A stretch of DNA of 54,239 bases from Bacteroidales bacterium. Lineage in GTDB: Bacteria; Bacteroidota; Bacteroidia; Bacteroidales; Bacteroidaceae. Positions 50,674 through 51,378 of this stretch are shown here, piece by piece. The position numbers and the translations under genes are program-made. The stretch covers positions 1 to 54,239 of the forward strand of contig SUXT01000007.1 of NCBI GenBank assembly GCA_015060835.1, in the 5' to 3' direction. Position 1 is the stretch's first letter. Every line of letters starts with the position of its first letter. The notes under the pieces were generated by a model. The model did no database searches, was not told the DNA's origin, and saw only the letters and a program-made list of their open reading frames with translations.

Positions 50674-50715
50674 TTATAGAGGATTTTCGAGAGCAGAATC
50701 TATAAAAAAAATGCA

Positions 50716-51211
50716 AAATGATTATCAAATATATTACCTAAAGTGTAATGTTGTTGGAATTAGTAACTTAAAAAGTTGTCCCTCTTTAAGGGGGGCAACG
50801 CGGAATGGAGCGTTGCTTGCGACGACGGAATATTTATATTCCCAAAACTACAGCAAGCGAGTGAATGGAAGTTTACTTACATTTACAACGAGCGCAGCAT
50901 AGTTTCGATATTATCAAAGGAGTGCCGAACGCATGTGAGGTCTTCCTCTTTTTTCTAAGGAAAAAGTTCGGAGGGGGTTCTTAACCTATCGTATTGCAAT
51001 AAACCGTACTACGCGAGGAAAACCCCTCCGTCTTCAAAAAACTTCGTTTTTTGAATAGACCTCGCAAGCTCGGCACTCCTTAGGAAAGCTAAAGCTTTCG
51101 TCGTCGCAAACATTGCTTATTACGCAATGTCCCCTTTAAGGGCAGGAGCTTTTTTAATAAGCTTTTTTGCTGATATTTAAAAGCATAGCATATATTGATT
51201 TAAAATAAATG
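50716..51211 (+). repeat. Composite structured repeat, full-length copy
   Basis: Order on the plus strand: a short end motif (aatgattatcaaatatatta, 50716-50766), the two-armed element (50767-51161) and a tail (51162-51211). The whole is the reverse complement of the left-end copy. The arms are inverted repeats with three hairpins each. Arm one has GCAACGC/GCGTTGC (50795-50816), GGAATAT/ATATTCC (50827-50842) and an inner T/A-rich stem. Arm two has ACATTGC/GCAATGT (51110-51130), GAAAGC/GCTTTC (51084-51099) and CAAAAAAC/GTTTTTTG. Shared unpaired blocks are ttgcgacgacg, aaggagtgccga and cggaggggg. About 72 extra bases (50844-50915) interrupt arm one. No protein is encoded. Confidence 0.85.
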
Positions 51212-51378
51212 TGTCCAAAGATTAGCTTTAAGGGCAGCAATATTTTAGAATAGTTTTTTATCCATTGAAGGATGGGGTTGTACTTTTTAGGTATAATATC
51301 GCATAATCATTAAATGCAAAATCTTTTCCGTAAGCAGAGAAGACCTTGCATTTTTAAGAAGCTGTTTGAATTTTATTA
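51212..51378. other. Intergenic sequence after the repeat
   Basis: It begins tgtccaaagattagctttaa, which recurs at 54200-54220 (inverted) and about 350-372, so it is a further piece of the same composite repeat. Nothing else is recognised before the sulfatase stop. Confidence 0.5.

Follow-up and report, generated by a model that had tools for sequence, protein, structure and literature searches.

A MITE-like element with two inverted arms

The window, the whole stretch of 54,239 nucleotides of Bacteroidaceae DNA that was analysed, carries at positions 50717-51311 a 595-bp MITE-like element without coding capacity. The element starts with AATGATTATCAAATATATTACCTAAAGTG at 50717 and its inverted counterpart ends at 51311; these AATGATTAT-type ends are the termini of the outer MITE. 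The 31-nt terminal inverted repeats (left, AATGATTATCAAATATATTACCTAAAGTGTA, 50717-50747, plus strand; right, 51281-51311, minus strand) are 77% complementary, and the left end recurs in other copies. On both sides the element is flanked by an 8-bp target-site duplication, AAATGCAA (50709-50716 and 51312-51319), which is perfect over its 8 bp. The same rule recurs at other loci: the duplication is also perfect in L237 (AAAATCAA) and L251 (AAAATTTA), it fits in L018 and L254 once the right end is set 1 nt shorter, it is imperfect in L020, and none was seen in the complete copies L023 and L241. The outermost layer is thus an element of the MITE type, with inverted ends, a duplication of fixed length, no coding capacity and multiple copies. 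With the right end as a query, at least 40 matches in the window's genome and at least 39 in a sister genome were found among the best 40 candidates scored per genome, most of them 97-100% identical. Because of these duplications and the ~40 near-identical ends in each of two genomes, the outer layer behaves like a recently active MITE.

A sequence-only reading of this DNA had described an inverted repeat with MITE-like ends that encodes nothing, and had proposed to look for target-site duplications at its copies. All of this agrees with our results, except for the extent of the element, which had been placed at 50767-51161 and therefore excluded the true ends. The BrickBuilt MITE of Porphyromonas gingivalis (PMC4596501) is likewise short and gene-less, with inverted ends and an interior composed of smaller repeats; it differs from the element studied here, whose interior consists of hairpin modules with covarying stems.

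Inside the element lie two inverted arms. Each possesses H0 and a core, and in most cases a weak hairpin D comes after the core. The core consists of hairpin A, linker J1 (TTGCGACrAC), hairpin B with the loop TTNA (TTTA in the window) and linker J2 (CAAAGGAGT). In arm one (plus strand), H0 (CCCTCTTTAAGGGGG, 50780-50794; also present without a core in L254 and L234) precedes hairpin A (GCAACGC-GGAATGGA-GCGTTGC, 50795-50816), J1 (TTGCGACGAC, 50817-50826) and hairpin B (GGAATA-TTTA-TATTCC, 50827-50842). Hairpin A is defined by a covariance-model match (L001 1555-1615, corresponding to 50794-50854 of the window) as well as by covariation, hairpin B by covariation, and the conserved linkers J1 and J2 by alignments of copies. 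The four nucleotides CAAA at 50843-50846 are the start of J2, which is completed at 50915-50923 (CAAAGGAGT, including a second CAAA). Downstream are the weak hairpin D (GCC..GGT, 50924-50941), found in most contexts though not in all, and a T-run/A-run hairpin (50948-50966) that belongs to the parental repeat and occurs in L254 without a core.

Arm two is encoded on the minus strand: a core at 51070-51131 (covariance-model match, E 3.7e-22; core-less counterpart in L004), made up of J2 (51075-51083), hairpin B (51084-51099), J1 (51100-51109) and hairpin A (51110-51130), is bordered by H0 (CCCCTTTAAGGG, 51131-51142) and by hairpin D (51059-51074). On the plus strand, this arm also carries a CGTC-tagged, REP-like hairpin C (CGTC-TTCAAAAAA-CTTCG-TTTTTTGAA-tail, 51029-51061), for which 45 related sequences were found. 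A third stem, 'stem C', had earlier been read as one covarying stem shared by the two arms. In fact, these are two different hairpins, the CGTC-tagged one in arm two and the T-run/A-run one in arm one, and position-by-position covariation between them cannot be asserted.

For the 395-nt strand, the folding energy is -160.6 kcal/mol (shuffled sequences, -98.6 +/- 4.5; z = -13.8). The blocks described as kept and unpaired are indeed conserved in both arms, but they are mutually complementary and can therefore pair over a long range in the whole element, so that only an isolated core leaves them single-stranded.

Nested insertions and mosaic structure

The two arms can be compared as inverted copies, as had been done from the sequence; arm one, however, is interrupted, and the interruption had been stepped over in that comparison. 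A 68-bp palindromic unit (GCAAGCGAGTG..CAACGAGCGCAGC, 50847-50914, plus strand) is inserted in J2 directly after CAAA, and CAAA is repeated on its far side, as a 4-bp duplication. L027 has this site occupied, whereas L107 has it empty. A related unit of ~68 bp is present at TTGC in J1 of L070, the same site being empty in L114. These units form a second palindromic family with 4-bp duplications (CAAA, TTGC) at its insertions, represented in the window (50847-50914), L027 (1571-1638), L070 (1542-1609) and L008, where copies stand in tandem with a spacing of ~76 bp. This family also seems to retain its linkers, with stems differing between copies. Furthermore, the same CAAA site holds another insertion of ~106 bp (ATTCCGAATTGCCGCGCC..) in L011 and L010 (1674-1779), and J2 has thus been hit repeatedly.

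The surroundings of the core are mosaic as well. A remnant of a second MITE family, namely its right end (ATGTGTCCAAAGATTAGCTT, 51209-51228, plus strand), known from the ends of L003 and L011, is joined via CTTTAAGGGCAG, which is duplicated at 51134 and 51226. The same parental repeats occur without a core in L254, L234, L004 and L039. A third MITE type was revealed by an orthologous filled and empty site in two species at ~93% identity: L200 (2925-3064), compared with L145, contains a 140-bp MITE (ends GGTTTGTCCACC..) that shares the CCCTTTAAGGG centre, has an 8-bp duplication and holds no core.

Stems are conserved by pairing, linkers by sequence

The earlier reading regarded the stems A (GCAACGC/GCGTTGC and ACATTGC/GCAATGT) and B (GGAATA/TATTCC and GAAAGC/GCTTTC) of the two arms as homologous and compensated, and named covariation over many copies as the test by which this view could fail. 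The view was upheld over ~100 distinct copies. Three alignments were used: 19 distinct cores, 68 matches from loci of the genus (50 distinct) collected with a covariance model built from these 19, and 77 distinct sequences from named public genomes. Pairing was found in 99.6%, 98.7% and 97.3% of the cells, respectively, percentages that lean upward, as all three alignments were found with the structure or fitted to it. Double changes affected 9 to 11 of 13 pairs over the three alignments (9 in the first, 11 in the second), and the cells with double changes numbered 57, 157 and 292 (17.8, 47 and 83 in shuffles). None of 500 shuffles reached the observed covariation score, and when the 3' partners were shifted by 1-3 columns, pairing fell to 34-52% in all three alignments. 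Linker conservation is overstated in the third alignment (A3), the copies having been sampled by search patterns and by a model made from them.

A set free of such structure-fitting bias was obtained for stem B, since its members were collected by the linker pattern only (48 distinct 16-mers, including one taken from locus L096; hairpin-less chance matches were removed by eye). Its base pairs are 266 Watson-Crick, 15 G.T, 4 A.C and 3 others; by mutual information, the six pairs of the stem rank first to sixth among 120 column pairs. The loop of hairpin B is TTNA in 111 of 112 cases, also where the loop lay outside the search pattern. In the core, therefore, the linkers and the TTNA loop of hairpin B are fixed in sequence, whereas the stems are conserved by pairing only.

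Could these stems simply have been exchanged? If the element were an ordinary MITE, its hairpins would have no role, and recombination between repeats would have exchanged entire hairpin modules. In favour of this, the mosaic make-up of the elements is clear, and certain stem types, though few, are shared by many species. Nevertheless, linkers and loop stay fixed despite tens of stem types, some of which are a single compensated step apart (e.g., GGGAGC/GCTCCC and GGGAAC/GTTCCC), and swapping would still require paired alternatives as starting material. We regard this explanation as very improbable.

Mispairs point to one folded strand

What is a G.T wobble on one strand reads as an A.C mismatch on its complement, and the two strands of the core can be told apart in this way. 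In the pooled loci, read on the strand TTGCGACrAC..CAAAGGAGT, the two stems A and B contain 30 G.T and 10 A.C pairs (distinct stems, binomial p = 0.002), and the 15 G.T and 4 A.C pairs of the stem-B set obtained from pattern searches alone give p = 0.019; both values are indicative, as the copies are related and the binomial test treats them as independent. The excess of G.T disfavours both a symmetric mutational cause and a cruciform; it favours a single folded strand, i.e., RNA or single-stranded DNA. The paired changes in ~100 distinct copies show that the folded shape of one strand has been preserved by evolution.

This bears on a mutational origin, in which the stems would be homogenised without selection by strand switching during replication (quasipalindrome correction). 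Templated correction predicts few one-sided stem changes and mostly perfect palindromes, as is observed, and this process may well contribute. However, it should act equally on both strands and does not predict the ratio of G.T to A.C, nor does it predict a TTNA loop and linkers that lie outside the stems and are fixed over four genera. As the full explanation it appears improbable.

Covariation on a defined strand is what a structured RNA displays, although it does not separate RNA from single-stranded DNA. An RNA would show the same G.U bias. The core could then be a non-coding RNA or a UTR element, its folding being selected when it is transcribed and its copies being carried by MITEs. Besides the strong covariation and the excess of G.U on one strand, its conserved linkers, which resemble binding sites, and the mostly intergenic position of its copies are in line with this proposal. 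Against it stand the low number of G.U pairs (15 of 288) and several observations on distribution and context given below, and we consider it unlikely.

Distribution and genomic context

The covariance model gave 101 matches in the window's genome and 45 in G021; since most genomes are incomplete MAGs whose contigs are often broken at these repeats, such copy numbers are lower bounds. Matches are present in 39 of 44 genomes of the same genus and in 18 of 151 genomes of the family, distributed over 4 of 30 sampled genera. This family-wide search overturned an initial restriction of the core to one genus. Among 294 other genomes of the order (best 18 candidates scored per genome), no match was found. 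A pattern scan of named genomes revealed at least 80 loci; all those listed come from MAGs labelled Bacteroidaceae, Bacteroidales, Prevotellaceae or Bacteroides, mostly of herbivore gut and rumen origin, and several of these MAGs bear the name Candidatus Colivivens caballi. A viral carrier was also considered, and 0 exact pattern matches were obtained in the IMG/VR viral contigs.

Of 83 sampled cores, 79 lie outside long ORFs. Their neighbouring genes run in the direction of the core on both sides in 11 cases, opposite to it on both sides in 14, convergently in 11 and divergently in 5. This lack of a sense preference (11 vs 14) speaks against a structured RNA, as does the variation in copy number within the genus, from 101 to none.

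The core occurs in several different outer contexts, one of which adjoins a 5S rRNA gene. In four species (L098, 443-807; L086, 1501-1868; L104; L091) it is located within a degenerate second 5S rRNA 3' end. In L098 and L086 it is closely preceded by an intact 5S gene, and none was matched in L104 and L091. Insertion inside a functional 5S gene was rejected, as in L098 and L086 the intact gene precedes the degenerate 3' end that holds the core. In these contexts, it is the opposite strand that would be transcribed, a further point against a structured RNA.

No clean empty site of a bare core was found in unique DNA, the core-less counterparts lying inside repeats. We infer from the varied contexts, therefore, that the core may be independently mobile; the boundaries of the bare core are uncertain.

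Comparison with known repeats and search for an enzyme

The core resembles the group-3 REPs of the TnpA-REP systems of Marinomonas and Stenotrophomonas (PMC8266576) in its short perfect stem, conserved unpaired 5' motif, high copy number and strand-specific folded form, and it shares the TTNA loop with Marinomonas. For the Marinomonas REP, TnpA-REP cleaves the single-stranded repeat, the loop must be TTNA, and a mismatch in the stem is damaging, whereas the effect of replacing the entire stem by its complement is only moderate (PMC8266576). Indeed, J1, hairpin B and J2 form a short (35 nt), high-copy intergenic palindrome typical of REPs. The core differs from group-3 REPs in its second hairpin and its long 3' linker CAAAGGAGT, and in the GTAG tag, in place of which GACrAC is found directly 5' of hairpin B in nearly all copies; a GTAG or CGTC tag is absent from this position, which speaks against classing the core as a REP.

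CGTC REPs have no known dedicated transposase, form dimers with different stems and occur also in Bacteroidetes (Di Nocera et al. 2013, PMC3733652). They are recognised by the CGTC tag, a stem of 8-9 bp with A/T in the first two positions, a 4-5 nt loop and a CCA tail. Hairpin C of arm two has the tag, a 9-bp stem starting with two T-A pairs and a 5-nt loop; its tail is TAGACC in the window, the CCA tail is seen in most relatives, and tails CCACC or TGACC predominate among the 45 related sequences. The likeness is confined to this hairpin, as in the covarying core hairpin B is not immediately preceded by CGTC on its 5' side.

The spread of REP-like repeats is ascribed to TnpA-REP enzymes. In contrast to group-3 REPs, and as a further point against a REP, no cognate gene was found in the core-rich genomes: Y1 transposase (PF01797) is missing in G000, G021 and G007 (94% complete), and no hit was obtained in the window's own, incomplete genome. 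In the genus, PF01797 is present in 3 of 16 genomes, never beside a core, and no RAYT/TnpA-REP gene is associated with a core in these 16. As a reverse transcriptase (PF00078) is missing in G021, G029 and G007, neither enzyme qualifies as a shared driver, although these absences are weak evidence, since the genomes are incomplete.

No known RNA family was recognised either: Rfam gave no match at the gathering score, which disfavours a structured RNA, and the weak hits below that score were confined to two microRNA families of eukaryotes and one Yersinia sRNA. A search of open-access literature text with core sequence strings returned unrelated papers only, and within that text the core is undescribed.

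A nested element with a probable REP-like core

With some reservation, we conclude that the element is probably a nested, non-autonomous mobile element whose core is a REP-like repeat recognised as folded single-stranded DNA. Folded DNA is favoured over RNA by the small number of G.T pairs, by the TTNA loop and by a stem/loop rule that matches that of the Marinomonas REP (PMC8266576). The sequence-only reading had offered a non-autonomous transposon with a structured DNA intermediate or a structured RNA; the former is the better-supported half, given the target duplications, the ~40 near-identical ends per genome and the TTNA loop, and its DNA intermediate is the part that we infer.

The core would be handled as folded single-stranded DNA of the one strand, in the manner of REPs. 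A putative protein would read the linkers and the TTNA loop and would need an intact stem of any sequence; as the stem would only have to pair, it could drift by paired changes. Part of the core's spread might have taken place as cargo within MITEs and parental repeats, and part through entry into other palindromic repeats. More tentatively, and with less likelihood, the unit A-J1-B-J2 could be a folded-strand motif not described before and recognised by a dedicated non-Y1 enzyme or a host factor, allowing it to enter and ride on other palindromic repeats in at least four genera of gut Bacteroidaceae.

The core thus bears the structural signature expected of a TnpA-REP-type enzyme, i.e., fixed linkers and loop combined with stems that may vary pairwise, in genomes that yielded no such enzyme. 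As the core exists in many natural variants, its recognition rule can be tested directly, and these variants provide a data set for separating selection on folded DNA from selection on folded RNA.
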